Source of the DNA: Nonomuraea rhodomycinica | GTDB taxonomy: Bacteria > Actinomycetota > Actinomycetes > Streptosporangiales > Streptosporangiaceae | DNA: 64,000 nt | Assembly (NCBI RefSeq): GCF_013363995.1 | Contig: NZ_JABWGO010000011.1 | Span: 186,001-250,000 of the forward strand | Reading direction: 5' to 3' | Translations under genes and position numbers: made by a program | In this document: in pieces, positions 1,160-17,522 of the stretch | Layout of the letters: every line of letters begins with the position of its first letter | Position numbering within the stretch: position 1 is the stretch's first letter | Notes under the pieces: generated by a model | Told to the model about the DNA's origin: nothing | Seen by the model: the letters and a program-made list of their open reading frames with translations, nothing else | The model's database searches: none

Positions 1160-1205
1160 GCGCGCGGACACGTGCGGACGGGGACGGCGGGCCTTGACGC
1201 CGCTG

Positions 1206-1220
1206 GATAATCGGGATGTG
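1206..1220 (+). promoter_or_regulatory. Putative leaderless -10 element of the rpiR-type gene
   Basis: GATAAT at 1206-1211 is followed by 6 nt and the GTG at 1218. This is the spacing expected when transcription begins at the start codon. No Shine-Dalgarno sequence precedes this GTG. Confidence 0.45.
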
Positions 1221-2114
1221 GACAACACCGGGAACGGCGTGCGCGCCGACACTCTGGTCGCCACGGTCCGCGGAGTGCTGCCCTCACTGACGCCCGCCGC
1301 GCAGACCGTCGCCCGCCTCATCCTGGAGGATCCCGCGACGGTGGCCCGGAGCACCATCACCGAGCTGTCCGCCGCCTCGGGCACCAGCGAGGCCACGATC
1401 GTGCGCACGGCCAGGCTGCTGGGCTTCGCGGGCTACCCGCAGCTCCGGCTGGCCCTGGCCGCGGCCGCCGCGCAGCCCGACCGGCTGGTGCCCGGCGACC
1501 TCGCCCCCGACGACCCGCTGTCGGAGGTCATCGTCAAGGTGGCCAGGGCCGAGTCCGAGGCGATCAACGACACGGTCGCCCAGCTCACCTCCGAGCGGCT
1601 GGGCCTGGTCATCGACGCCATCGTGGGGGCGCGGCGGGTCGACGCGTACGGCGTGGGCGCCTCGGGCCTGGTCGCGGCGGACGTCGCGCAGAAGCTGCTG
1701 CGCATCGGCGTGTCCAGCCACGCCTTCCAGGACGCCCACCTCGCGCTGACCAGCTCCGTCCTCCTCAAGCCCGGCGACGTCGCCATCGGCATCAGCACGT
1801 CCGGCGAGACGCCGGACGTGCTGGAGCCGCTGGGCCGGGCCAAGGAGGCCGGCGCCACCACCGTGGCGATCACCAACAACCCGCGCTCGACGATCGCGGA
1901 GCTGGCCGAGCACGTGCTCATCTCGGCCGGGCGCGAGACGGAGTTCCGTCCCGGCGCGCTGGCCAGCCGCATCAGCCAGCTCCTCGTCATCGACTGCGTG
2001 TTCGTCGGCGTCGCCCAGCGCACGTTCGACTCCTCCCAGGAGGCGTGGAACAGCACCAGGCGCGCCGTTCAGGAGTTCACCCGGAGAACGTCACACGCAC
2101 GTCGTCAGCCTTGA
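1218..2114 (+). CDS. MurR/RpiR-family transcriptional regulator (HTH_6 + SIS)
   Basis: The 298-residue protein has an N-terminal RpiR-type helix-turn-helix (about residues 10-85, TELSAASGTSEATIVRTARLLG) and a C-terminal SIS sugar-phosphate isomerase fold (about 115-280, with VGASG and ISTSGETPD loops that hold a phosphosugar). Such proteins repress or activate sugar-phosphate or MurNAc-6-phosphate genes. A TTG at 1194 is also in frame, but GTG 1218 fits a -10 element 6 nt upstream. Its 3' end overlaps the convergent amidase gene by 38 bp. The adjacent peptidoglycan hydrolase makes a cell-wall-sugar ligand an attractive but unproven idea. Confidence 0.88.
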   Translation: MDNTGNGVRADTLVATVRGVLPSLTPAAQTVARLILEDPATVARSTITELSAASGTSEATIVRTARLLGFAGYPQLRLALAAAAAQPDRLVPGDLAPDDPLSEVIVKVARAESEAINDTVAQLTSERLGLVIDAIVGARRVDAYGVGASGLVAADVAQKLLRIGVSSHAFQDAHLALTSSVLLKPGDVAIGISTSGETPDVLEPLGRAKEAGATTVAITNNPRSTIAELAEHVLISAGRETEFRPGALASRISQLLVIDCVFVGVAQRTFDSSQEAWNSTRRAVQEFTRRTSHARRQP

Positions 2115-3996
2115 CGAACATGACGCGGTGCCCGAACTGGATCTCCAGGTACTTCGTCTTGCCCTTGACCACGGTGTGCGGCTCCGGCTCGAAGGTGACC
2201 GCGCGGTAGTACTCGGTCGCCGCCGGGCCGGCCAGCGTGTACTTCTCGCCGGCCGAGAACGTGTACTGCAGCGGGGTGACCGCCTGGTACGGGATCCCGG
2301 CCGGGTAGGCCTCCTTCTCCGGGTAGGCCCTGCCGTACACCGGGACCGTGGCCAGGCCCGGCTTGGGCGTCACCACGAGGCCCATGGAGGGCACGGCGGT
2401 CGGCGCGGAGGCCGGGTTGTGGAACCACGCCTTCTGGCCGAGGTACCAGATCGCGGTCCAGTCACCCTGCCGGTCGGCCACGGCGAAGCGCTGGCCGGTG
2501 GTGGCGCGGGCGCTGTGGTCGTACACGCTGTAGAGGGAGTCGCCCGTGGGGTGCTTGCCGATGTCCTTGATCAGCGGGGCGTCGGCGCGCGGCTCCGTGC
2601 GCAGCCAGACCGTGGAGGCGGGCAGCGGCGGGCAGGCGTTCTCCGGGTTCTTGCGGTCACAGCCGTAGAAGTACGGCTTGTTGGTCGCGAAGTCCGGCTT
2701 GATCATGATGGATCCGGACCTGGGGCCGCCGAACTGGTGCAGCGGGGCGCCGATCAGCTCGAAGTAGTGCGCCCAGTCCCAGAACGGTCCCGGGTCCTCG
2801 TGCATGCCCTTGACCGTGGTCGGCAGGGTGCCGGGCACGTTGTCGTGACCGAGGATGTGCGCGCGGTCGAGCGGCACGCCGTGGCGCAGCGCCAGGTAGC
2901 GCACCAGCTTGGCCGACGACCGGTACATCGCCTCGGTGTACCAGGTGCTGCCCTCGGCCAGGAAGCCCTCGTGCTCGATGCCGATGGACTTGGCGTTGAT
3001 GTACCAGTTGCCGGCCTGCCAGCCGACGTCCTTGGTCTTGATCTGCTGGGCGATGTGGCCGTCGCTGGAGCGGACGGAGTAGTGCCAGCTCCCGGGCCAC
3101 TTCGGGTCCTGGTTGAGCTTGACCGAGGGCGCCCAGTAGCCCTCCATGTCGTGGATGATGATGTAGTCGACCTTCTGGCTGACGGGCCGGTCCGCCAGGT
3201 CGTAGTGGCCGTAGTCGTCGTTCGGGAGCTGGGCGTAGGCCGCCGGGATCCACTCGCAGGAGATCGTGGGCGGGCACTCGACGCCGTCGCGGCGCGGCGG
3301 GCGCAGGCCGAGCTTCTCCAGCCACTTCTCCACGGCCTCCAGGCCGGGCACCGGCTTGAGGACGACGCGGCCGCCGTCGTCGGTGACCCGGTCGGCGCCC
3401 TCCTTGATGGTCGAGTACACCTCGTCGGCGAAGACCTTGGCGGCCTGCGACTCCTCGGCGCCGGAGTACTTCGCGACCGCGCCGTACCACTCGGCCGGAT
3501 CGTCGCTCAGCGGCGCGCCGAGCGACTTCTGGTAGTCGGCGAGCAGCGCGGCGCCGCCCCGGATGTTGGCGGCGTCGTCGGCGCGCAGCTTCTCGCGGCT
3601 CTCGCCGGTGAGCTCGGCGGCCTTCTCGATGGTGCGCAGCGAGGCGGGGATCTCGGCGGGGGCGGGGGTCTCGGCGGGGGCGGCCAGCGGGCGGCTCTCG
3701 TCGCCGCGCGCGTCCTCCTCGCTCTCGCCGTGGTGGTTGGAGGCGGTGAAGGAGGCGGCGTCGGTCAGGTGCATGGGGCCGAACCCGGCGTTGTTGCTGG
3801 GCTGGCCGGCGTGGGCGTCCCAGCGCGACTCCAGGTAGGAGACGCCCAGCAGGACGCTTTCGGGGACCTTGAACTCCGCGGCGGCGGCGGTGAACGCCTG
3901 CTGCCGGTCGTCCGGCTCGGCGGCGGCCTGCGCCGCCGTGGGGATGCTCGCTAAGGGGAGGAAGGCGACCGCGGCGATCGCCAGCGCTCTGCGCAT
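2077..3996 (-). CDS. Secreted N-acetylmuramoyl-L-alanine amidase (Amidase_2) with N-terminal lysozyme-like region
   Basis: The 639-residue exported protein has a Sec signal peptide (residues 1-25, cleavage likely after AQA). Residues 40-80 resemble a transglycosylase fold, with LESRW (Glu56) and NAGFGPMHLTD. An Amidase_2 domain spans about 275-415 with probable zinc ligands His282 (IIIHDMEG), His384 (LGHDNVPG) and Asp401 (HEDPG), so it should cut the MurNAc-L-Ala bond. The C-terminal 170 residues look like SH3-type wall-binding repeats. ATG 3996 is chosen because AGGAG lies 7 nt upstream and the signal peptide starts there. Whether the N-terminal lysozyme-like part is catalytic is unclear. 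Confidence 0.88.
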   Translation of the reverse strand: MRRALAIAAVAFLPLASIPTAAQAAAEPDDRQQAFTAAAAEFKVPESVLLGVSYLESRWDAHAGQPSNNAGFGPMHLTDAASFTASNHHGESEEDARGDESRPLAAPAETPAPAEIPASLRTIEKAAELTGESREKLRADDAANIRGGAALLADYQKSLGAPLSDDPAEWYGAVAKYSGAEESQAAKVFADEVYSTIKEGADRVTDDGGRVVLKPVPGLEAVEKWLEKLGLRPPRRDGVECPPTISCEWIPAAYAQLPNDDYGHYDLADRPVSQKVDYIIIHDMEGYWAPSVKLNQDPKWPGSWHYSVRSSDGHIAQQIKTKDVGWQAGNWYINAKSIGIEHEGFLAEGSTWYTEAMYRSSAKLVRYLALRHGVPLDRAHILGHDNVPGTLPTTVKGMHEDPGPFWDWAHYFELIGAPLHQFGGPRSGSIMIKPDFATNKPYFYGCDRKNPENACPPLPASTVWLRTEPRADAPLIKDIGKHPTGDSLYSVYDHSARATTGQRFAVADRQGDWTAIWYLGQKAWFHNPASAPTAVPSMGLVVTPKPGLATVPVYGRAYPEKEAYPAGIPYQAVTPLQYTFSAGEKYTLAGPAATEYYRAVTFEPEPHTVVKGKTKYLEIQFGHRVMFVKADDVRVTFSG

Positions 3997-4038
3997 GGGC
4001 GCTCCTAGACTGCTGGGGGTGCTGCAACGCACAGCGTC

Positions 4039-4915: not shown

Positions 4916-6262
4916 TCAGCCCTTGACCACCACCGTGGTCAGCGATCGCGGCGCGAGCGTCACCGTGCGGGCGGTGACCTCGGACGGGGTCAGGTCGTGG
5001 GTCTCGTCCGTGACGTAGGCCGTCGCCCGGCCCCGTACGCCGCTCCACGTGACCGGCGCCGTTCCCGTGTTGAGGATCTCCACCACCCGGGAGCCGTCCT
5101 TGTTCCGGAACGCCGAGACTTTCAGTGACGGGTCGGTCGCCGAGGCGTCCAGGCGGATCGCTCCCGGGCGGATGAACCGGCTGTAGGCGGCCAGGGCCCA
5201 CAGGCGCTTGGACACGTGGTACGTCCTGGCCGTCTCGTCGATCTGGAGCAGCGCGCGGGTGGCGCCGCGCGAGGCGCCGAGCCAGTAGACGTAGCCGCTC
5301 ACGTCGCCCAGCGTGAGGGCGTCGTGCACGGCCGAGGCGATCGTCATGCCGTCGTAGCCGCCGCCGTCGTCCCAGCGCTCGTCCCACGTGTCGCCGTTGG
5401 GGTTCCACTCCGACATCCACGTCCTGCGGGTCGTGGGCAGCGGCCCGTCCACGGGGCTGGCGTAGGTGTGGCCGGTGTGGGTCCTGACCCAGCGGCGCGC
5501 CTCCGGGTCGGCCTCGACGGCCGCCGAGTACGCCTTGGCCTCCTTCCAGCCGAACGAGTCGCAGCACACCAGGTTCACGCCCTTGGCGATGGGCCCGAGG
5601 ACCTTGGCGAACGCGGCGGCCTCGGTCGGGGTGAACCGCATGGAGGCGTAGGTGGCGGTGAAGTCCGGCTCGTTGGTGAAGCCGAGGTCGGTGATCCTGA
5701 TGCCCTCCTGGGCGTAGAAGCGGGTGTACTGGGCCAGGTAGCGGGCGTAGGCGGCACGCCACTCGGGCTTGAGGACGCCGCCGTTCTTGTCGTCGCCGTT
5801 GTCCTTCATGTAGCCGGGGGCGCTCCAGGCGTCGGCGAAGAAGCGCCGCACGCCGTACTCCTTGGCCGCCTTGGCCACCCAGACCTGGCTGTTGTCGTCG
5901 CCGTCCCACACGTAGCGGGGCGGCGCGTCGGGGCCGCCCGGGTCCTCGGGCTGGATCGAGACCATGTGGTCGTACGGGCTGCCGGCGGGGGAGGAGCCGA
6001 TGCCGAGCCGCAGGATGCTGAACCCGGCGCCCTTGGCGCGGTCGAACCACAGGTCGAGGATCTCGCGCTGCTGCGCCTCGGGCAGCGCGCGGAGCAGCTC
6101 GTTGCGCCGGAAGGCCTGCGAGATGCCGAAGCCGTCGATCTCCTGGTGACGGACGTGCTCACGTACCGTGATCACGCTCGGGGCGGCGGTGTCGGGGCCG
6201 GTGGGTGGGGTGTGGACGGCCGGCAGGCCGAGCAGCGTGATCGCGACAACGCCTCGCCACAT
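4916..6262 (-). CDS. Secreted glycoside hydrolase, GH30-like
   Basis: The 448-residue secreted protein starts with a short signal peptide (MWRGVVAITLLGLPAVHT). A (beta/alpha)8 catalytic domain spans about 30-365, followed by an all-beta domain to the C-terminus, the GH30 layout. Candidate catalytic residues are Glu198 (GFTNEPD, acid/base) and Glu285 (WMSEWNPNG, nucleophile). The DGFGISQAF segment after strand 1 is also GH30-like. ATG 6262 is chosen because GGAGGGC precedes it and the signal peptide begins there. Xylan, beta-1,6-galactan or glucan could be the substrate; the CGAAA-N-TTTCG palindrome upstream favours a xylan-type regulon, which is inference. Confidence 0.8.
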   Translation of the reverse strand: MWRGVVAITLLGLPAVHTPPTGPDTAAPSVITVREHVRHQEIDGFGISQAFRRNELLRALPEAQQREILDLWFDRAKGAGFSILRLGIGSSPAGSPYDHMVSIQPEDPGGPDAPPRYVWDGDDNSQVWVAKAAKEYGVRRFFADAWSAPGYMKDNGDDKNGGVLKPEWRAAYARYLAQYTRFYAQEGIRITDLGFTNEPDFTATYASMRFTPTEAAAFAKVLGPIAKGVNLVCCDSFGWKEAKAYSAAVEADPEARRWVRTHTGHTYASPVDGPLPTTRRTWMSEWNPNGDTWDERWDDGGGYDGMTIASAVHDALTLGDVSGYVYWLGASRGATRALLQIDETARTYHVSKRLWALAAYSRFIRPGAIRLDASATDPSLKVSAFRNKDGSRVVEILNTGTAPVTWSGVRGRATAYVTDETHDLTPSEVTARTVTLAPRSLTTVVVKG

Positions 6263-6270
6263 GGCGCCCT

Positions 6271-6283
6271 CCGAAAGTTTCGG
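6271..6283. promoter_or_regulatory. CCGAAA-G-TTTCGG palindrome at the GH30 ribosome binding site
   Basis: A perfect 6-bp inverted repeat with a 1-nt centre begins 8 bp upstream of the GH30 start codon and its edge touches the GGAGGGC ribosome binding site. Similar CGAAA-N-TTTCG palindromes are known upstream of xylan-utilisation genes in Streptomyces. It is probably a repressor operator. Confidence 0.55.
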
Positions 6284-6473
6284 CACATCGACGATATATT
6301 TCGCATGCGTGCCGGAAACGTAAACGCCGGCCGGGGATCCGTCAACACCTCTGTCAGGGCGGGAGGAGGCGCGGGGACGGCGTTCCCCCGTCCGGGCGCG
6401 GCTGCGTGCGCGGGCGAGTAAGACGGAGTGTTGCCATTCGGGCACGGCGCCGTGGTGGGTGGCGATTTCCCAC

Positions 6474-6490
6474 TATGGTGACGTTTCATG
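6474..6490 (+). promoter_or_regulatory. Putative -10 element of the coiled-coil/PP-loop operon
   Basis: TATGGT at 6474-6479 lies 8 nt before the ATG at 6488. The transcript would start within a couple of bases of the start codon. No -35 consensus is obvious. Confidence 0.4.
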
Positions 6491-6850
6491 ATGCGCGTCC
6501 TGGTCCCCGCGCGGCTGCGTCAGGCCGTGCGCACGTGGTTCGATGCCCGCTACATCTCCATCGCCGACCACCGCCAGGACATCAGGGACGCCCTGTGGGA
6601 GGTCCAGACGCTGCGCCGGGAGATGGCGACGCTCCAGGCGGAGGTGGAGCGCCTGCGCAAGGCCGCGCCCGCCGCGCCGGGGCCGGACCGTGCCAAGCTC
6701 GACGAGACCCGCCGCATCGCCCAGGACACCCAGCGCCTGGCCCAGGAGACGGCCAAGGCGATGGACGGCGTGCTGCAGAACGAGGTCCTGGTCTGGCAGG
6801 CCATCGACGAGCTCAGGGACCGCGCGGCCGGCGTCGCGGAGCGGTCGTGA
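6488..6850 (+). CDS. Small coiled-coil protein of unknown function
   Basis: The 120-residue protein has a basic N-terminus (MMRVLVPARLRQAVRTWFD) and two helical heptad-rich segments at about residues 30-58 (leucine-rich, ending EVERLRKA) and 70-115 (ETRRIAQDTQRLAQETAKA), joined by an Ala-Pro linker. There is no signal peptide or membrane segment. It overlaps the next gene by 4 bp (GTGA), so the two are almost surely translated together and the protein may scaffold or regulate the PP-loop enzyme. I do not recognise a named family with confidence. Small coiled-coil proteins in actinobacterial surface-polysaccharide loci look similar, but this was not tested. Confidence 0.7.
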   Translation: MMRVLVPARLRQAVRTWFDARYISIADHRQDIRDALWEVQTLRREMATLQAEVERLRKAAPAAPGPDRAKLDETRRIAQDTQRLAQETAKAMDGVLQNEVLVWQAIDELRDRAAGVAERS

Positions 6851-8052
6851 GGGTGACCTGGTCGGGCGGCGTCCTGACCTTCCGCCTCGACCCCGAGGAC
6901 GAGATCACCGGGCACGCCTCCGACGGCCACCCCGTCAAGCTCGCGATCAACTCGTGCTCCCTGTCGGACGTGCCGGACGACGCCCACCCCGACCTGTTCG
7001 CCGTGGCCGCGTGGACCGTCGTCGCCCCGTGGACGCGCAGGCGCGTCACCTTCGACCGGGCGGTGTCGGCCGAGGTCGCCGCCGCGCTGCACGACGGGTG
7101 GGGGATCGAGGCCGGGCCCGTCGGCGCCGAGCCGCGCCGCGCCGGGAGCACGCTGGCGATCTCCTACAGCGGCGGGGCGGACTCCGTGGCCGCGGCCACC
7201 GTCTACCCGGACGCGCCGTTCGTCCACTTCCAGCGGGTGCCGCACGCCCGCGTCCCCAACCGGTGGCCCCACTACCGCTCCGACGTGCTGGCCAAGCTGG
7301 CCCGGGGGACCGGGCGCGACCTCACGATCATCCGGTCCGACCTGGAGTACACGCTCGCCGAGCCCCGTCCCGGCTACCCGGAGCACCAGGCCGTCGCGGC
7401 GGGCGCGCTGCTGTCGGCCGACCGGCTCGGCCTCGGCGGTCTCGGCTTCGGGTACGAGATGGGCTCCCGGTGGCTCGGCGGCGGCCGTTACCTGCTGCGC
7501 TACACCCCGGACAACGACCTGTGGGCGCCCCACGGCAAGTGGGGCCGGCTGTTCGCGGCGGTGGGCGTCCACATCGTGCTGCCCGTCGGCGGGGTCAGCG
7601 AGGCCGTCACCATGCGCCTCGCCCTCGGCTCCGACCTCAAGGACTCCGTCCGCTGGTGCCTGCGCGGCACCGACGGCCCCTGCCGTACCTGCGGCAAGTG
7701 CCTGTACAAGGAGCTCATCCAGGCCGCGATCGAGCGGCGTCCGCTCGACACGCCCATCACCGCCGACCGGCCCGTGGCCCGCAAGTGGATGCGCCCGCCG
7801 CCCTACGGCGGCCAGGAGATGATCCAGTACGGCCTGGCCCGCGTGCCCGGGATCGAGAACACGGTGTTCGCCACGGCCCTGACGTACTTCGACGTCACCG
7901 AGGAGTCGACGAGCTGGCTCGACCACTGCTACCCGAGGGCGATCGAGGAGATCCCGGAGCCGTGGCGGGAGCGGGCGGCGGCGTTCATGGCGGCCAACGT
8001 CGGCTTCATGACCGACGACGAGGTGCGCCGGGTGGAGAGCTGGGGATCGTGA
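6847..8052 (+). CDS. QueC-like PP-loop ATPase of unknown pathway
   Basis: The 401-residue protein has a unique ~100-residue N-terminal region followed by an N-type PP-loop domain with SGGADS at residues 108-113. Cys271, Cys279, Cys282 and Cys285 (the last three in CRTCGKC) are arranged like the zinc site of 7-cyano-7-deazaguanine synthase QueC. PP-loop enzymes adenylate a carbonyl before adding sulfur or nitrogen. No queD, queE or queF lies nearby, so a deazaguanine role is not supported by context. GTG 6847 overlaps the stop of the coiled-coil gene; this start gives VRVTWSGG. The substrate is unknown, and it may belong to an uncharacterised actinobacterial DUF family. Confidence 0.75.
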   Translation: MRVTWSGGVLTFRLDPEDEITGHASDGHPVKLAINSCSLSDVPDDAHPDLFAVAAWTVVAPWTRRRVTFDRAVSAEVAAALHDGWGIEAGPVGAEPRRAGSTLAISYSGGADSVAAATVYPDAPFVHFQRVPHARVPNRWPHYRSDVLAKLARGTGRDLTIIRSDLEYTLAEPRPGYPEHQAVAAGALLSADRLGLGGLGFGYEMGSRWLGGGRYLLRYTPDNDLWAPHGKWGRLFAAVGVHIVLPVGGVSEAVTMRLALGSDLKDSVRWCLRGTDGPCRTCGKCLYKELIQAAIERRPLDTPITADRPVARKWMRPPPYGGQEMIQYGLARVPGIENTVFATALTYFDVTEESTSWLDHCYPRAIEEIPEPWRERAAAFMAANVGFMTDDEVRRVESWGS

Positions 8053-8072: not shown

Positions 8073-8915
8073 ATGAAGGTGTACCTGTCGGTCGACATGG
8101 AGGGCGTCACCGGGCTTACCGACCCGGAGGAGATGCACGCCGGCAAGCGGGGCTACGAGCGCGGGTGCGAGCTGATGACGGCCGACGCCAACGCCGCCGT
8201 CGAGGGCGCCTACGCGGCCGGTGCCACGTCGGTGCTGGTCAACGACGCCCACGGGTCCACCAAGAACCTCCGCATCGACCTGCTCGACCCCCGCGCCACC
8301 CTCATCCGCGGCCCCGGCAAGGCGCAGCGGATGGCGCAGGGCCTGGACGGCTCGTTCCAGGCGGCCGGGTTCATCGGCTACCACGCCCGCGCCGGGGTGC
8401 AGCACGGCGTGCTCAACCACACGTGGATGGGCAAGGAGATCCAGAACGTCTACCTCAATGGCGAGGTGTGCGGCGAGACCCGGCTGGTGGCCGCGTGCGC
8501 CGGGTTCCACGGCGTGCCGGTCGTGCTGGTCAGCGGGGACGAGGCCGTGGGCGAGGAGGCCCGGGAGCTGCTCGGCGACGTCGAGACGGTGGCGGTCAAG
8601 AAGGGGATCGACAAGTTCTCGGCCGAGCTGCTGCCGCCGAGCGTGGCCCAGTCCCGCATCCGTGACGCCATGGCCCGCGCCCTGAACCGGTTGACCGACT
8701 TCACGCCGTACACGCCGGCTCCGCCGTACACGCTGGGGGTGGAGTGGAACTCCACCGCCATCGCCGCCGCGGTCGGGCTGATCCCGGGCGTGAAGGCCGC
8801 GGGGACGCGCCACACCGAGTTCACGACCGACGACTTCACGCAGATCATGGCGCTGTTCGGCATCTTCGCCACGATCGGCGGCCAGATCGCCTGCGGCAGC
8901 GGCCCCTACGGCTGA
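8073..8915 (+). CDS. M55-family D-aminopeptidase (DppA-like)
   Basis: The 280-residue protein matches the M55 D-aminopeptidase family, zinc enzymes that remove N-terminal D-amino acids and release D-Ala from wall-derived peptides. The amino-terminal SVDMEGVTG supplies Asp8 and Glu10. His60 (NDAHGS), His104 (GYHA), His116 (NHTWMG) and a Glu in NGEVCGET complete the expected metal and catalytic set. ATG 8073 is preceded by AAGGGGAG at good spacing; an in-frame GTG at 8049 overlapping the previous stop is possible. It lies 20 bp after the PP-loop gene and is probably co-transcribed with it, so it may share a pathway. No signal peptide is seen. Confidence 0.9.
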   Translation: MKVYLSVDMEGVTGLTDPEEMHAGKRGYERGCELMTADANAAVEGAYAAGATSVLVNDAHGSTKNLRIDLLDPRATLIRGPGKAQRMAQGLDGSFQAAGFIGYHARAGVQHGVLNHTWMGKEIQNVYLNGEVCGETRLVAACAGFHGVPVVLVSGDEAVGEEARELLGDVETVAVKKGIDKFSAELLPPSVAQSRIRDAMARALNRLTDFTPYTPAPPYTLGVEWNSTAIAAAVGLIPGVKAAGTRHTEFTTDDFTQIMALFGIFATIGGQIACGSGPYG

Positions 8916-11308: not shown

Positions 11309-11314
11309 TATGGT
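11309..11314 (+). promoter_or_regulatory. Putative -10 element of the kinase cluster
   Basis: TATGGT at 11309-11314 lies 10 nt before ATG 11325. It contains the upstream in-frame ATG 11310, which argues that 11325 is the real start. This promoter could serve all three kinase genes. Confidence 0.4.
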
Positions 11315-11324
11315 GCTTCATGCC

Positions 11325-13775
11325 ATGAACGATGACCGACTTGGCCCTTACCGGCTGCTCAGGCGGCTCGGTGAAGGCGGAATGGGCGTTGTCCACCTCG
11401 CTGCCGACCCCCAGGGGCGGCACGTGGCGGTCAAGGTCCTGCGCGGCGAGGTCGCCGGTGACGAGGTCGCCAGGCGACGGCTGTCGCGCGAGGTCGAGAC
11501 CATGCGCCGGGTGCGCAGCCGGTACATCGCCGAGGTCGTCGACGCCGACGTCACCGGTCATCGTCCGTACATCGTCACGCGCTACGTCCCCGGGCGCTCG
11601 CTGGACGAGATCGTCAAGGACGACGGCCCGCTGGACCTGCCCGCGCTGGTGCGCATCGCGCACGGCGTGGCGACGGCGCTGGCCGCGGTCCACTCCGTCG
11701 GCGTGATCCACCGTGACCTCAAGCCCGGCAACGTGCTCATCCTCGACGGCGAGCCGGTGCTCATCGACTTCGGCATCGCCCAGGCGGTCGACGCCACGCG
11801 GCTGACCCAGACCGGCATGTTCATCGGCACGCCCGGCTACCTCGCCCCGGAGATCATCGAGGGGCAGGAGGCGGGGCCGGAGGTCGACGTCCACGCCTGG
11901 GCCGGCACGCTGCTGTACGCCTCCACCGGCCAGCCGCCCTTCGGCAAGGGCACGCTGGAGATGATCTTCTACAACATCACCGCGGGCAAGGCCGAGATCG
12001 GGGCCGCGCCGGCCGAGCTGCAGCCGCTGCTCAAGGCCGCCTTCCAGCGCAACCCCGGCAAGCGGCCGAAGGCCGCCGAGCTGGCCGAGCAGACCGCGCG
12101 CATGCTGCCCCGGTCGCCGGGCGCGTCGCCGGACGAGATCTCGACGGTGCCGGGCCCCGACCGCTTCGACCTGCCGGCGCCGCGGCCCGTCGCCGAGCGG
12201 CCGGCCTGGGAGATCTCCACGCCGCCGGTCACGCCCCGCCGGCTCCTCGACGGGCAGGAGGTCCGCTTCGGCCAGCCGGGCGGGCCCGCTCCCGGCCAGC
12301 CGCCGCCGGGCCAGGACCAGCCGTACGTGTCGCTGCTCGGCCAGGGTGGCCCGCCGCTCGCGACGGGCGTTTCCGGAACTGGTCCGGGCGTTCCCGGAAC
12401 CGGACAGAGCGGTCCTGTGGCCGGCGTTCCGGGCACGGGGCAGGGCGGTGCGACGCCGGGTGGCGACCAGGCCGATCCGTGGGCGGACGACGAGGGCGAC
12501 CCGTGGCCGACCCGCCGCGTCACGCCCGAGGAACTGCGCCGCATGCAGCAGGAGAGCGGCGCCCAGCCGTGGCAGGGCGCCCCGCGGCCGGGTGACGGCG
12601 CCGCCTACCCGCGGCCCGGCGACAACGCCTTCTCCCGGCAGGGCGACAGCGCCCCGTCCCCGTGGCCCGGGGAGCACGGCCCGCTGCCGTCGCAGGAGGG
12701 CGACGTGCCGACGCGGCGCGTACGCCCCGACCACCCCGACTACGGCCGCCCGAACGTCGACTACGGCCGCCCCGGCGCCGCTCCGGGCACCGGACCCCAC
12801 GCGGGTCCCGCGCCGTATCCCGGATCGGGGCCGCACGCCGCGGCCCCCCACCCAGGATCGGGCCCGCACGCCGGGCCCGCGTCGTTCTCCGGACCGGCCG
12901 CGTACTCCGGACCGCACGCCACGCCCGGGTCGGGCCCGCAGGCCGGCCACCCGGGTCCTCAAGGGCACCAGGCGGGTCATCAGGCAGGGCACCAGGCGGG
13001 TCATCAGTCCGGGCACGCGGCGTTCGGCATGGGCGGCCCGTCCGGACCGGCGCCGCAGGGACGTCCCACCCAGCAGCCGCCGCCCCCCTACATCCCGGCC
13101 CAGCCGCAGTACCCGCCCGACCCGCGGACCAAGCGGGAGCCGTTCGTCCCGGGCGCCGTTCCGGGCCAGGTGCTCCAGCGTTCCCGGGCCTACGGCGTGG
13201 CGGGCGCGATGCTGCTCGTCGTCATGATCGTGGTGGCGGTCATGGCGCCCGTGCTGGTGGCCGCGGTGGTCGTGCCCGTCGCGGTGCTCCTGCGCGCCGC
13301 CGACCTGGCCCAGCCGGAGCTGATCGCGCGCCGCTCGACCGGCGCGGCGGCGCTGGACGTGGTCAGGGTGTTCGCGCACCCGCAGGCGCTGGCCAAGTCC
13401 GTGGGCATCACGCTCGCTCTGGTTCTTTACGCTCTCATACTCGGGCTACCCGTTACGCTGCTCCTCACCGTGGTACTCGGTACGGACCCGTACAACGCGC
13501 TGGCCTGGGGAGCGGCGGTCGCCCTCTGGACCCTGTGCGCGGGACCGGGCGTGGAGGGCCCGGGGCGCCAGATGCGCAGGACGCTCGCTTCCCTCGTACC
13601 CTCGAGAACAGCGGCGATGGTGCTGGCGGGCGTCCTCGGGGCGGCCGCGGCGCTCTCGCTGGTCCTCGCCTACGGCACGTTCAGGGACGACGCTAGGAGG
13701 GCCGTATGGGCTCCGGTGAACGTGGGACCTGTGGTGGAGCAGCTCGACGGACTGAAGGGGGACTCGGGGGGATGA
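11325..13775 (+). CDS. Transmembrane Ser/Thr protein kinase 1
   Basis: The 816-residue protein starts with a Hanks-type kinase domain (residues 5-265): GEGGMG nucleotide loop, Lys37 (VAVKVL), catalytic HRDLKPGN (Asp131), DFG Asp148 and GTPGYLAPE activation segment. A ~340-residue linker rich in Pro, Gly and His follows, with repeated PGSGPHAG and GHQAGHQAG units. The last ~200 residues hold several hydrophobic helices rather than one anchor, and there is no PASTA domain. It is the first of three tandem kinase genes; the next starts 16 bp downstream. Its membrane domain resembles that of kinase 2. The input signal is unknown. Confidence 0.92.
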   Translation: MNDDRLGPYRLLRRLGEGGMGVVHLAADPQGRHVAVKVLRGEVAGDEVARRRLSREVETMRRVRSRYIAEVVDADVTGHRPYIVTRYVPGRSLDEIVKDDGPLDLPALVRIAHGVATALAAVHSVGVIHRDLKPGNVLILDGEPVLIDFGIAQAVDATRLTQTGMFIGTPGYLAPEIIEGQEAGPEVDVHAWAGTLLYASTGQPPFGKGTLEMIFYNITAGKAEIGAAPAELQPLLKAAFQRNPGKRPKAAELAEQTARMLPRSPGASPDEISTVPGPDRFDLPAPRPVAERPAWEISTPPVTPRRLLDGQEVRFGQPGGPAPGQPPPGQDQPYVSLLGQGGPPLATGVSGTGPGVPGTGQSGPVAGVPGTGQGGATPGGDQADPWADDEGDPWPTRRVTPEELRRMQQESGAQPWQGAPRPGDGAAYPRPGDNAFSRQGDSAPSPWPGEHGPLPSQEGDVPTRRVRPDHPDYGRPNVDYGRPGAAPGTGPHAGPAPYPGSGPHAAAPHPGSGPHAGPASFSGPAAYSGPHATPGSGPQAGHPGPQGHQAGHQAGHQAGHQSGHAAFGMGGPSGPAPQGRPTQQPPPPYIPAQPQYPPDPRTKREPFVPGAVPGQVLQRSRAYGVAGAMLLVVMIVVAVMAPVLVAAVVVPVAVLLRAADLAQPELIARRSTGAAALDVVRVFAHPQALAKSVGITLALVLYALILGLPVTLLLTVVLGTDPYNALAWGAAVALWTLCAGPGVEGPGRQMRRTLASLVPSRTAAMVLAGVLGAAAALSLVLAYGTFRDDARRAVWAPVNVGPVVEQLDGLKGDSGG

Positions 13776-13791: not shown

Positions 13792-15666
13792 ATGAGCACG
13801 GGCAACACCCAGGCGCCAGAGCGGCTCGGCCCCTACCGGGTGGTACGGAAGATCGGCGAAGGCGGCATGGGGGTTGTCCACCTCGGCGTCGACTCCGAGG
13901 GCCGCGAGGTCGCCATCAAGGTGCTCCACCCGCACGTGGCCGCCGACCTCAAGGCCCGCGACCGGCTCACCCGCGAGGTCGAGACCATGCGCCGGGTGCG
14001 CAGCCCGCACGTGGCCGAGGTGCTCGACGCCGAGCTCGTCGGCGGCCAGCCGTACGTGGTGACCCGGTTCGCGCCCGGCCGCACGCTGGAGGAGACCGTA
14101 CTCAACGACGGCCCTCTGCCCGCCGGCGAGGTGATCAAACTGACGCGGGGGCTGTGCCAGGCGCTGGTGTCCATCCACGCCGCCGACGTGATCCACCGCG
14201 ACTTCAAGCCGTCCAACGTCATGCTGGTCGACGGCGAGCCGCTGGTCATCGACTTCGGCATCGCCCACCTGGTCAACGCCACGCGGCTGACCCAGACGGG
14301 CATGTTCGTCGGCACGCCCGGCTACCTCGCGCCCGAGATCATCCGTGACTCCGAGATCACCCAGGCGGCCGACGTCCACGCGCTGGCCTCCACGGTGTTC
14401 TTCGCCGCGACGGGCGCGCCGCCGTTCGGCACGGGCACGTTCGAGGCGGTCTGCTTCAACATCATGGAGGGGCGCGCCCAACTCGACAAGGCGCCCGCGT
14501 GGCTGCGCGGCTGGCTCTCGCGCGCCCTGGACGTGGACCCGTCCGCCCGGCCCAGCGCCCAAGAGCTCCTGCGCATGGCCAGGGCGCTCGACCCGTCGGT
14601 GACGACGTTCCACGAGGCCGCGCCGCAGGCCCAGACGGGCGGCACGAAGAAGCTGTCCACCCGCACCCGCGTCCTCGACGCCCAGGACTCCTACGCCGAC
14701 CTGCTGCCGCCCGTCGAGTACGGCCCGCCGCAGCCCCGCCACGAGCCGACGCCCCGCCACGAGCCGAAGCCCCGGCAGGAGCGCCCCCGGCAGGAGGAGC
14801 GCCCGCCGCCCTACGTGCCGGCGCCCATGCCGGCCCGCGCGCCCCGGCCCGACCAGCGGGTCGCCGGCGCTCCGGCCCCCGGCTACCCCGCCACGCAGGA
14901 CCGCTACCGCCCGGCCACCCAGCCGCCCCGGTACACGCCGCCCGCGACCCAGGACAGCCGCCGTCCGGCCGCCCCGCCCCCGTACACGCCGCCCGCCGAG
15001 CGCAAGCGCTACCTCGTGGGCAGCCAGCTCGTCGGCGGTCTGCTGCTCGTCATGCTGGTCGCGCTGACGGTCATGATGCCCGTGGCCGTGGGCGCGGTGG
15101 CCATCGCGCTCGCCGTGGTGCTGCGGGTGGGCGACTACCTGTTCGGCGACATGGTCAAGCGCCGCCAGATCCGCGGCTCCAGCGCCGCCGACCCGCTGCT
15201 CGTGCTCGTCGGCACCCCGTGGGCGCTGGTCAAGGCCGCGCTCGTGTCGCTGGTCCACGTGCCGCTGTCGATCCTGTTCGGCCTCTGCGTGTACGGCGTG
15301 CTGCGCTGGGGCGGCGGCATGGGCGTCAACGAGGGCGCCGCGTGGGCGGCGGGGGCGTTCTCGGCCGGCCTGTTCGTGCTGCCGGGCGGCGGCCCGCCCC
15401 GCCGGACGGTCACCCGGGCCATCACCGGCATGCTGCGCAGCCCCGGCGCGGCCACGGTGGCGCTGCTGGCGGTGGGCACCGTGACGATGGTCGTGGTGAT
15501 GTTCGCGCTGGGCCAGGAGACGGTCTGGAGCCCGTGGCGCGCCCCCGAGACCGTGATCAGGGAGCTGACCCGCAGCGCGCGGGACAGCGCGACGGGTCTC
15601 ATCACGGGCCTCATCGACGACCTCCTGCGTCAGGTCGGGCTAGGCTTCCTGTCACCCTGGTCCTGA
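13792..15666 (+). CDS. Transmembrane Ser/Thr protein kinase 2
   Basis: The 624-residue protein has a complete kinase domain (residues 10-275): GEGGMG, VAIKVLH lysine, HRDFKPSN catalytic loop (Phe in place of the common Leu), DFGIAH and GTPGYLAPE. A Pro/Arg-rich linker of ~120 residues with PRHEP repeats follows, then a multi-helix membrane region from about residue 405. That region shares the order VMMPVAVGAV...VLRVGD with kinase 1 and looks like a tandem duplicate. It ends in a short polar tail with an amphipathic stretch. No phosphatase gene is in the window. Substrates are unknown. Confidence 0.92.
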   Translation: MSTGNTQAPERLGPYRVVRKIGEGGMGVVHLGVDSEGREVAIKVLHPHVAADLKARDRLTREVETMRRVRSPHVAEVLDAELVGGQPYVVTRFAPGRTLEETVLNDGPLPAGEVIKLTRGLCQALVSIHAADVIHRDFKPSNVMLVDGEPLVIDFGIAHLVNATRLTQTGMFVGTPGYLAPEIIRDSEITQAADVHALASTVFFAATGAPPFGTGTFEAVCFNIMEGRAQLDKAPAWLRGWLSRALDVDPSARPSAQELLRMARALDPSVTTFHEAAPQAQTGGTKKLSTRTRVLDAQDSYADLLPPVEYGPPQPRHEPTPRHEPKPRQERPRQEERPPPYVPAPMPARAPRPDQRVAGAPAPGYPATQDRYRPATQPPRYTPPATQDSRRPAAPPPYTPPAERKRYLVGSQLVGGLLLVMLVALTVMMPVAVGAVAIALAVVLRVGDYLFGDMVKRRQIRGSSAADPLLVLVGTPWALVKAALVSLVHVPLSILFGLCVYGVLRWGGGMGVNEGAAWAAGAFSAGLFVLPGGGPPRRTVTRAITGMLRSPGAATVALLAVGTVTMVVVMFALGQETVWSPWRAPETVIRELTRSARDSATGLITGLIDDLLRQVGLGFLSPWS

Positions 15667-15710: not shown

Positions 15711-17522
15711 ATGAGCGAGCACCTCGGTCCGTACCACCTGCTCTCCCGGCTCGGTTCCGGCGGTTTCGGCGAGGTGCACCTCGCGCTCGACCCCGAGGGG
15801 CGCACGGTCGCGGTCAAGGTGCTGCATCCGCACGTCGCGGCCGACGCCGTCGCGCTGGCGCGGCTGGCCCGCGAGGTCGAGACGATGCGCCGGGTCGGCG
15901 GGCCGTACGTGGCGGAGGTGCTGGACGCCTCGCTGGACGGCCGGTCGGGTGACGGGGCGCGGCCGTACCTGGTCACCCGTTACGTGCAGGGCAGGCCGCT
16001 CAGCGCGGTGACCGTGCCGGTGGCCGACCTGCCGCGCCTGGCGGCGGGGCTGGCGGCGGCGCTGCTGGCCATGCACGAGGCGGGCGTCATCCACCGCGAC
16101 CTCAAGCCGGCCAACGTGATGATGGCCGAGGGGCGGGCCGTGGTCATCGACTTCGGCATCGCCAGCGCGCTCGACTCGCTGTCGGTGACGGCCTCGGGCG
16201 CGGTGGTGGGCACGCCCGGCTACCTGGCCCCCGAGGTGCTGGAAGGCCGCGAGGCGGGCATGGCGGCCGACGTGTTCTCCTTCGGGGCCACGCTCGCGTA
16301 CGCGGCCACGGGACGCCAGCCGTACGGGCAGGGCCCCGCGTCGGCGGTGGCCTACCGGGTCGTCCACCACGAGCCCGACCTGGAGGGCGCCCCGGAGTGG
16401 CTGGAGCCGCTGCTGCGGCGGTGCCTGTCCACGGACCCCGCCGCCCGGCCCACGGCCGCCGAACTGCACGCGAAGCTGGGGGCCCTCGCCGGGCCCCCGC
16501 CGTCCGAACCGGCGGGCACCCCGGGATCGTCCATGTCTCCGGCTCCCGGCACACCGTGGCCGTCCGCTGTCCCCGGGTCACCGGATCGCCCGCCGCCTCA
16601 TGCCCCCGCAGCCAATGGCGGGACAGCCCCTGGCACAGGGCCGAACGGTGTTTCATCCCGGGGCGCCTGGCCGGACGGCGCTTCGTCCCGAGGCGCCGGG
16701 CCTGACGGCGCTTCGTCCCGGGGCGCCGGGCCGGGACGTGTCGAGGCGGGCGGTGGCGGGGCCGGTGGTCCGGCGGCGGATGTCCCGCCGCTGGGCGGCA
16801 CCCCGCCTGGTGGGGCCGCCGCCCGGCCGCCGGACGTGACGGCCGCCCAGGCGTCCTCGACAGGCTCCCCCGACGCGGCCGCGCCCCCCGCCCAGGGGCC
16901 CTGGACGGGACGGGCCGGTGCGCCCGGTAATCCCTCCCCGGCGTCCTGGACAGGGTCGCCCGGCACCGATGCGACCGCCGCCCAGGGGTCCTGGACGGGG
17001 CTGCCGGGCGTGGACCCGTCCCGTCTCGACATGCCTGACATATCCGGCGGACGCGAGCCGGACCTGCGCCACGACCTGCGCCGGGACCGGCGGCGCTCCC
17101 GGGCGGAGCGGCGGCACGAGGGCCTGCACGACCTGGAGACCCGCGAGTGGCGGCCCGGCGACGACCGGCGCCGGCGCTCACCCGAGGAGGCCAGGGAGCG
17201 GCACCGGGAGAAGGTGCGCAGGCGGTGGGTGATCGGATCGGCCCTGTTCGTGGCGCTGCTGGCGGCCGCGGCGCGGGAGCCGCTGCCGGAGGTGACCCTG
17301 TTCCTGCTGGCCGGGTACACGCTGGGGGTGGTGGCCGACGCCGGCGTGGCCCTGCTGGCGCACCGGCCGTACCGGACGAGCCGGATCGTGGTGGACTTCG
17401 CGAGCATCGTGGGCGCCGTGGGGCTGAGCCTGGGGCTGAGCATGGCGTTCAGCACGTTCACGCTGGCGCTGTTCGCGGGGACGGCGCTGGTGACGGGGAT
17501 CGTGTTCCTGCTGTCCGCCTGA
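15711..17522 (+). CDS. Transmembrane Ser/Thr protein kinase 3
   Basis: The 603-residue protein has a kinase domain (residues 3-265) with GSGGFG, VAVKVLH lysine, HRDLKPAN, DFGIAS and GTPGYLAPE. The linker contains repeated DGASSRGAGP units and WTG..G segments (about 290-440), then a charged Arg/Asp-rich stretch. Four hydrophobic helices end the protein (about 505-603); they differ from those of kinases 1 and 2. GGAAGGAAGGGG precedes ATG 15711. It lies 44 bp after kinase 2. The three linkers have diverged greatly while the kinase cores remain close, which fits duplication followed by divergence of input domains. Confidence 0.9.
   Translation: MSEHLGPYHLLSRLGSGGFGEVHLALDPEGRTVAVKVLHPHVAADAVALARLAREVETMRRVGGPYVAEVLDASLDGRSGDGARPYLVTRYVQGRPLSAVTVPVADLPRLAAGLAAALLAMHEAGVIHRDLKPANVMMAEGRAVVIDFGIASALDSLSVTASGAVVGTPGYLAPEVLEGREAGMAADVFSFGATLAYAATGRQPYGQGPASAVAYRVVHHEPDLEGAPEWLEPLLRRCLSTDPAARPTAAELHAKLGALAGPPPSEPAGTPGSSMSPAPGTPWPSAVPGSPDRPPPHAPAANGGTAPGTGPNGVSSRGAWPDGASSRGAGPDGASSRGAGPGRVEAGGGGAGGPAADVPPLGGTPPGGAAARPPDVTAAQASSTGSPDAAAPPAQGPWTGRAGAPGNPSPASWTGSPGTDATAAQGSWTGLPGVDPSRLDMPDISGGREPDLRHDLRRDRRRSRAERRHEGLHDLETREWRPGDDRRRRSPEEARERHREKVRRRWVIGSALFVALLAAAAREPLPEVTLFLLAGYTLGVVADAGVALLAHRPYRTSRIVVDFASIVGAVGLSLGLSMAFSTFTLALFAGTALVTGIVFLLSA

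Follow-up and report, generated by a model that had tools for sequence, protein, structure and literature searches.

QueC, QatC with its partner QatB, and MurL are the closest described counterparts of the enzyme reported here, DUF6395 from Nonomuraea rhodomycinica. QueC has three conserved motifs, YxQxHxxE, VPxRN, and YPDC, according to the cited portion of PMC13329287, and its function is abolished by the Y35A, R99A, and Y131A mutations. We refer to these motifs as those for 7-carboxy-7-deazaguanine (CDG). QatC has also lost the CDG residues. The cited portion of PMC13279940 states that it acts together with QatB, that QatB requires its N-terminal glycine, and that the reaction of QatC itself is unsolved. 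A cluster of four cysteines (Cys4) is given as a zinc site of QueC and QatC in the portions of these papers cited here. MurL had no known conserved domains and an unclear mechanism in 2021, as stated in the cited portion of PMC8788868. The gene of DUF6395 lies in a 64,000-nucleotide stretch of contig NZ_JABWGO010000011.1 (positions 186,001–250,000; hereafter the window), next to that of a 120-residue coiled-coil protein, CC.

The source organism is a soil actinomycete with a genome of 9.6 Mb. The nearest named relatives found were Nonomuraea roseoviolacea subsp. carminata and N. montanisoli (98% for the enzyme). CC, DUF6395, and an M55 D-aminopeptidase form a conserved three-gene unit. The M55 gene is a member of this unit that is missing from a preliminary description of the window, which had been made from the sequence alone and named only the first two genes.

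Family and fold of DUF6395

The enzyme matches the Pfam family PF19932 (DUF6395) at 1.3e-67 and 227.6 bits, with a gathering cut-off of 25; the Pfam model spans only residues 231–400. The family is thus already named in Pfam, a point absent from the preliminary description, which had called the enzyme a QueC-like PP-loop ATPase with no known pathway. Both parts of that statement agree with our results: no published pathway for DUF6395 was found in a literature search, and the top Foldseek match of the DUF6395 model in the PDB is QueC (E 5.9e-3). QatC was the best structural match in a second search, and among the 50 matches listed, it is the only one that aligns with the model from residue 1 on. 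Profiles of DUF6395 and MurL, searched by sequence against the PDB, matched only weakly (E of at least 0.016), mostly to PP-loop stretches.

Motif conservation was counted over 37 aligned DUF6395, 11 MurL, and 12 QueC sequences, the last taken from genomes of the same order. The SGGxDS loop and the Cys4 cluster of QueC are both present in DUF6395. In the PP-loop, S108, G110, and D112 are found in 37/37 members, and G109 and S113 in 36/37 each. The four cysteines of CX7CX2CX2C (C271, C279, C282, and C285) and the N-domain residues H47, D49, and P61 are invariant in all 37, so that the SGGADS and four-Cys motifs picked out in the preliminary description stand.

QueC shares the core fold, the PP-loop, and a CX7CX2CX2C-like cluster with DUF6395 but has no N-terminal domain. 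QatC, like DUF6395, consists of an N-terminal domain, a QueC core, and a C-terminal extension, and the two have in common the PP-loop, the Cys4 cluster, and the loss of the CDG Tyr/Asp motif. Their Cys spacings differ, that of QatC being C(x)19CGxC by description in the cited portion of PMC13329287, where D(x)4R(x)7WxR, RxRxxxF/Y, HP, and other motifs are also given for QatC. The same portion describes Cap9 of type IV CBASS, which, in contrast to DUF6395, is minimal (about 185 residues) and keeps the CDG motifs, and the Cys motif CxxC(x)6CxC of the N-acetyl sugar amidotransferases (WbpG type), which differs from that of DUF6395. Compared by description, the latter resemble DUF6395 as PP-loop enzymes of polysaccharide loci.

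Absence of the CDG motifs

Each of the three CDG motifs was found in 0 of the 37 DUF6395 sequences by pattern search, whereas VPxRN and YPDC are present in 12/12 QueC of the order (I for V and S for Y allowed). VPxRN or YPDC was likewise found in 0/11 MurL by pattern search. The position of the Lys after the QueC motif (Lys in 12/12 QueC) is occupied by Glu in 36/37 DUF6395 and 11/11 MurL. Because the CDG motifs are missing in all 37 members, DUF6395 is not QueC itself, and the QueC model PF06508 gave no match to the enzyme at E up to 10.

The whole genome of the organism contains no match to PF06508 or to PF01242 (PTPS/QueD); QueE and QueF were not searched. A full-length QueC occurs in 0/31 genomes of the order with DUF6395, compared with 12/70 without it; weak partial PF06508 matches in 11 of the 31 (best E 3.6e-7) were not counted as QueC. 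No deazapurine genes were present among the neighbours scanned, in line with the preliminary description, and the link to queuosine-pathway genes that it had named as counter-evidence was sought and found for neither QueC nor QueD genes. CDG is an unlikely substrate because its motifs are absent, QueC is found in 0/31 genomes, and the organism's own genome lacks PTPS. A deazapurine pathway was discarded because of the motifs and the absence of QueC and PTPS, the two families searched, and what DUF6395 modifies is probably not a queuosine-type base. That DUF6395 could still be a canonical QueC or another CDG enzyme would agree with its top Foldseek match and with some database entries named 7-cyano-7-deazaguanine synthase, but the motif counts and the missing QueC and PTPS matches make this very improbable.

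Co-occurrence of the CC segment with DUF6395

Counts of loci refer to the best 80 of 96 relatives from a scan of genome contigs. CC lies beside DUF6395 in 80/80 of these loci and is found in all 31 DUF6395 genomes of the order, which bears out the pairing proposed in the preliminary description. The conserved C-terminal segment of CC is present in all 80 loci (78 by pattern and 2 by eye). Seven genomes of the order (G029, G048, G063, G078, G092, G098, and G100) have CC and M55 without DUF6395. In all seven, the coiled coil is kept, the segment is missing, and CC terminates shortly beyond the coiled coil; in five, which belong to one genus, the CC stop overlaps M55 by TGATG. On a tree of 78 M55 sequences (71 with and 7 without DUF6395), the pattern of segment and enzyme corresponds to three changes, at least two of them forced by well-supported branches, the tree giving their number and not their direction.

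The segment accompanies the enzyme in 80/80 loci and is missing in 7/7 genomes without it, which is most simply read as the segment serving DUF6395, whereas the coiled coil and M55 would be useful without it. The segment is the likely, predicted contact site of DUF6395. The three genes could instead be neighbours by descent, an old operon with no physical or pathway link. All of them occur in one bacterial family with a long conserved gene order, as this would require, but the genes overlap or nearly touch, and the segment follows the enzyme (80/80 with it, 0/7 without) through at least two forced changes; we consider descent alone improbable.

The CC protein

CC and the enzyme are not chance open reading frames (ORFs), because of the PF19932 match, the position of CC beside the enzyme in all 80 loci, and purifying selection on CC. 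The latter is indicated by dN of 0.016–0.080 versus dS of 0.436–0.854 in six Nonomuraea pairs over the N-terminal 57 codons, calculated with L031 in place of the window's copy, the two proteins being identical. CC had been described as heptad-rich. This holds for residues 26–58, where the heptad pattern is strong and equalled in 0/5000 shuffles, but not for residues 72–108, where 2975/5000 shuffles equal it. Searches of Pfam, NCBIfam, and PHROGs with CC gave weak matches only, and no literature on M55 together with coiled coils was found.

In both CC-DUF6395 and QatB-QatC, a dedicated small helical partner is encoded alongside a QueC-fold enzyme, as described for the latter in the cited portion of PMC13279940. 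This coupling, together with QatC being the best structural match, would fit a protein modification like that of QatC/Cap9, with CC as the substrate to whose N-terminus a group is added. QatB and the Cap9 substrate, however, need an N-terminal glycine, and a Met-Gly N-terminus is found in only 1/80 CC proteins (start sites picked by script); it is for this reason unlikely that CC serves as an NDG-like substrate. QueC and PTPS are also absent from the organism's own genome, and we give this possibility a small chance. As for the other Qat components, no KAP ATPase (QatA) or TatD (QatD) was present among the six scanned neighbours of the unit. PADLOC gave no match for CC, DUF6395, or M55; a defence role found no support there but may still exist.

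A C-terminal Cys-x tail, present in 34/80 CC proteins, was considered as a modification site and rejected: at least 31 of the 34 are read through the overlapping DUF6395 start, and the window's own CC has no tail. In CC of Nonomuraea loci (for example, 9648–10007 of L046), this tail is a conserved -Cys-Ala/Val end.

Gene layout and distribution

The features of the unit are listed in Table 1. The overlap of the CC and DUF6395 genes by GTGA, reported in the preliminary description, lies at 6847–6850, and the coordinates of both genes were borne out. Between the DUF6395 stop and the M55 start, 20 nt intervene in the window; RNA folding of this junction gave nothing.

Table 1. Features of the CC-DUF6395-M55 unit (positions in the window).
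Feature	Positions	Strand	Remarks
CC, 120-residue coiled-coil partner protein	6488–6850	+	ATG start; adjoins DUF6395 in 80/80 loci
CC residues 26–58, heptad (coiled-coil) segment	6563–6661	+	Shuffle test; kept without DUF6395
CC residues 83–110, conserved C-terminal segment RLAxETAxAxDxxLQNEVLLWQAID	6734–6817	+	Helix-like by eye; proposed DUF6395 contact
DUF6395, QueC-fold PP-loop enzyme, 401 residues	6847–8052	+	GTG start
DUF6395 N-terminal domain, residues about 1–100, QatC/MurL-like	6847–7146	+	H47, D49, P61 invariant
SGGADS PP-loop, residues 108–113 of DUF6395	7168–7185	+	S108, G110, D112 invariant
Cys4 cluster C271, C279, C282, C285 of DUF6395	7657–7701	+	37/37 members
M55 D-aminopeptidase (DppA-type), third gene of the unit	8073–8915	+	PF04951, 6.7e-95

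Around DUF6395 in the 80 loci, CC was found in 80, an amine oxidase in 79, a Ser/Thr kinase in 78 (by eye), a YbaK-type tRNA-editing domain in 73, M55 in 71, and an enoyl-CoA hydratase in 69. With gene starts projected from the window's proteins, the gap from CC to DUF6395 has a median of −4 nt (30 nt or less in 74/80; largest 139), and that from DUF6395 to M55 a median of −1 nt (30 nt or less in 46/71). From these gap sizes, CC, DUF6395, and M55 are the tight unit, and the other genes reflect conserved gene order.

PF19932 was found in 31/101 genomes of the order and in 1/296 of a phylum sample, the single one being the window's own. CC is present in 38/101 genomes of the order, the 31 with DUF6395 and the seven without. 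Orthologous M55 (at least 74% identity, E < 1e-130) occurs in 37 genomes, namely 30 of the 31 with DUF6395 (not G079) and all seven without.

Three tandem Ser/Thr-kinase-like ORFs (by eye) lie downstream of the unit at 11310–13775, 13792–15666, and 15711–17522. A glycosidase-like gene at 4916–6445 (GH30 by eye) is beside the unit in 5/80 loci, reflecting recent insertion or frequent loss. Further upstream (1194–4032) are an RpiR/SIS-type regulator (20/80 loci) and a divergent N-acetylmuramoyl-L-alanine amidase (27/80), a possible cell-wall recycling setting.

Distant relatives in glycan loci

On a Priestia plasmid and four phage contigs, distant DUF6395 genes are located among glycosyltransferase, FkbM methyltransferase, UDP-glucose dehydrogenase, and epimerase genes, and one DUF6395 member is fused to a glycosyltransferase domain. 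Twelve phage loci were found, neighbours were listed for nine, and Pfam was run on the proteins of six, four of which (L182, L184, L187, and L190) have glycan families beside DUF6395. Because of this glycan context, a carboxylate on a sugar-linked molecule is favoured for the family at large, and the substrate of MurL is a UDP-sugar peptide. M55 points to peptides for the window's unit.

DUF6395 could accordingly be a glycan-carboxylate amide or conjugate synthase, which would activate a uronic-acid-like sugar carboxylate and join it with ammonia or an amine, in analogy to the reaction of QueC on its base. The distant loci and the fusion favour this, but few such loci are visible, and in the 80 Streptosporangiaceae loci it is M55, not sugar genes, that is conserved beside the unit; we regard it as rather unlikely. 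The surface-polysaccharide setting, anticipated in the preliminary description, likewise applies to distant relatives only, the close partners in Streptosporangiaceae being CC and M55.

A small unannotated protein with an N-terminal GxGEIG-type nucleotide-binding motif is encoded near phage DUF6395 (L182, 4034–4735; L184, 7232–7912; L187, 5545–6255). The two copies scanned belong to no Pfam family and gave weak PHROGs matches to UDP-glucose dehydrogenase. The Priestia protein had no match in the phage collection. A tblastn match in Sinorhizobium (H3, E 0.3) falls on the strand opposite a large ORF, which by eye encodes an export ATPase, and was dismissed as chance.

Relation to MurL

The DUF6395-MurL profile match spans 356 columns, and the MurL model is also QatC-like. 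The two families share the PP-loop, the Cys4 cluster, and Glu where QueC has Lys, whereas MurL has a GGGKDS loop and a wider Cys spacing. Given this common build and the M55 neighbour, DUF6395 might replace MurL in main peptidoglycan synthesis. The organism's own genome, however, has a glutamate racemase (TIGR00067, 2.8e-70, above the cut-off). In addition, no Mur ligase family that could supply a MurD2 partner is present among the six neighbours, the own MurD being on another contig, and the MurL model NF041275 gave no match to the enzyme at E up to 1. This model was found in 0/31 genomes with DUF6395, in a scan in which the controls were silent, though it matches an actinobacterial MurL. Such a replacement is hardly credible.

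Proposed function

DUF6395 probably acts as an N-type ATP pyrophosphatase with a QueC fold and the QatC/MurL build. It would most likely adenylate a carboxylate (ATP to AMP and PPi) and then transfer the activated group. The substrate would not be CDG, a carboxylate on a peptide or sugar-linked cell-envelope precursor being the likeliest candidate. The C-terminal segment of CC may dock on DUF6395, like QatB on QatC, and the coiled coil would also be used without DUF6395, beside the M55 D-aminopeptidase. "Adenylating enzyme" and "scaffold", the labels given in the preliminary description, are what we infer for DUF6395 and CC. Taken as a whole, an active carboxylate-activating enzyme that does not use CDG, with CC as its dedicated docking partner, is the explanation towards which we lean, by a modest degree.

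Several observations weigh against it. PTPS is present in 9/31 genomes with DUF6395, and VPNRW at residues 136–140 of actinobacterial DUF6395 resembles VPxRN by its letters alone. The DUF6395 core has a marginally stronger match to QueC than to MurL (7.6e-7, 177 columns, for QueC), and the DUF6395-MurL match is weaker in subsets (non-actinobacterial, 4.4e-4; actinobacterial, 0.004; A1, 0.0043), for the N-domain profiles alone (E 0.011), for the C-extension alone (0.043), and in direct BLASTP (E 0.024). M55 is missing in 9/80 loci. Finally, the segment and the enzyme could have been lost together in one deletion, which would say nothing about contact, but more than one such event would be needed, each leaving a clean short frame.

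A bolder proposal, which we offer as tentative and unlikely in its entirety, is that CC and DUF6395 together make up a two-component enzyme like QatBC and carry out MurL-type chemistry in the actinobacterial envelope, namely ATP-driven activation followed by epimerisation or ligation at a peptide carboxylate. M55 would act on its D-residue product, and QatC, MurL, and DUF6395 would form one enzyme class with a common N-domain and QueC core.

The DUF6395 family can thus be assigned a fold, a probable partner, and a few candidate reactions. MurL is suggested to be an ATP pyrophosphatase of the QueC/QatC type, which would explain its ATP-to-AMP chemistry and indicate residues to mutate. Because the reaction of QatC is unsolved in the cited portion of PMC13279940, MurL-like carboxylate chemistry can be put forward as a new hypothesis for QatC. 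Since the CC segment and DUF6395 are repeatedly absent together, the proposed complex can be put directly to the test.
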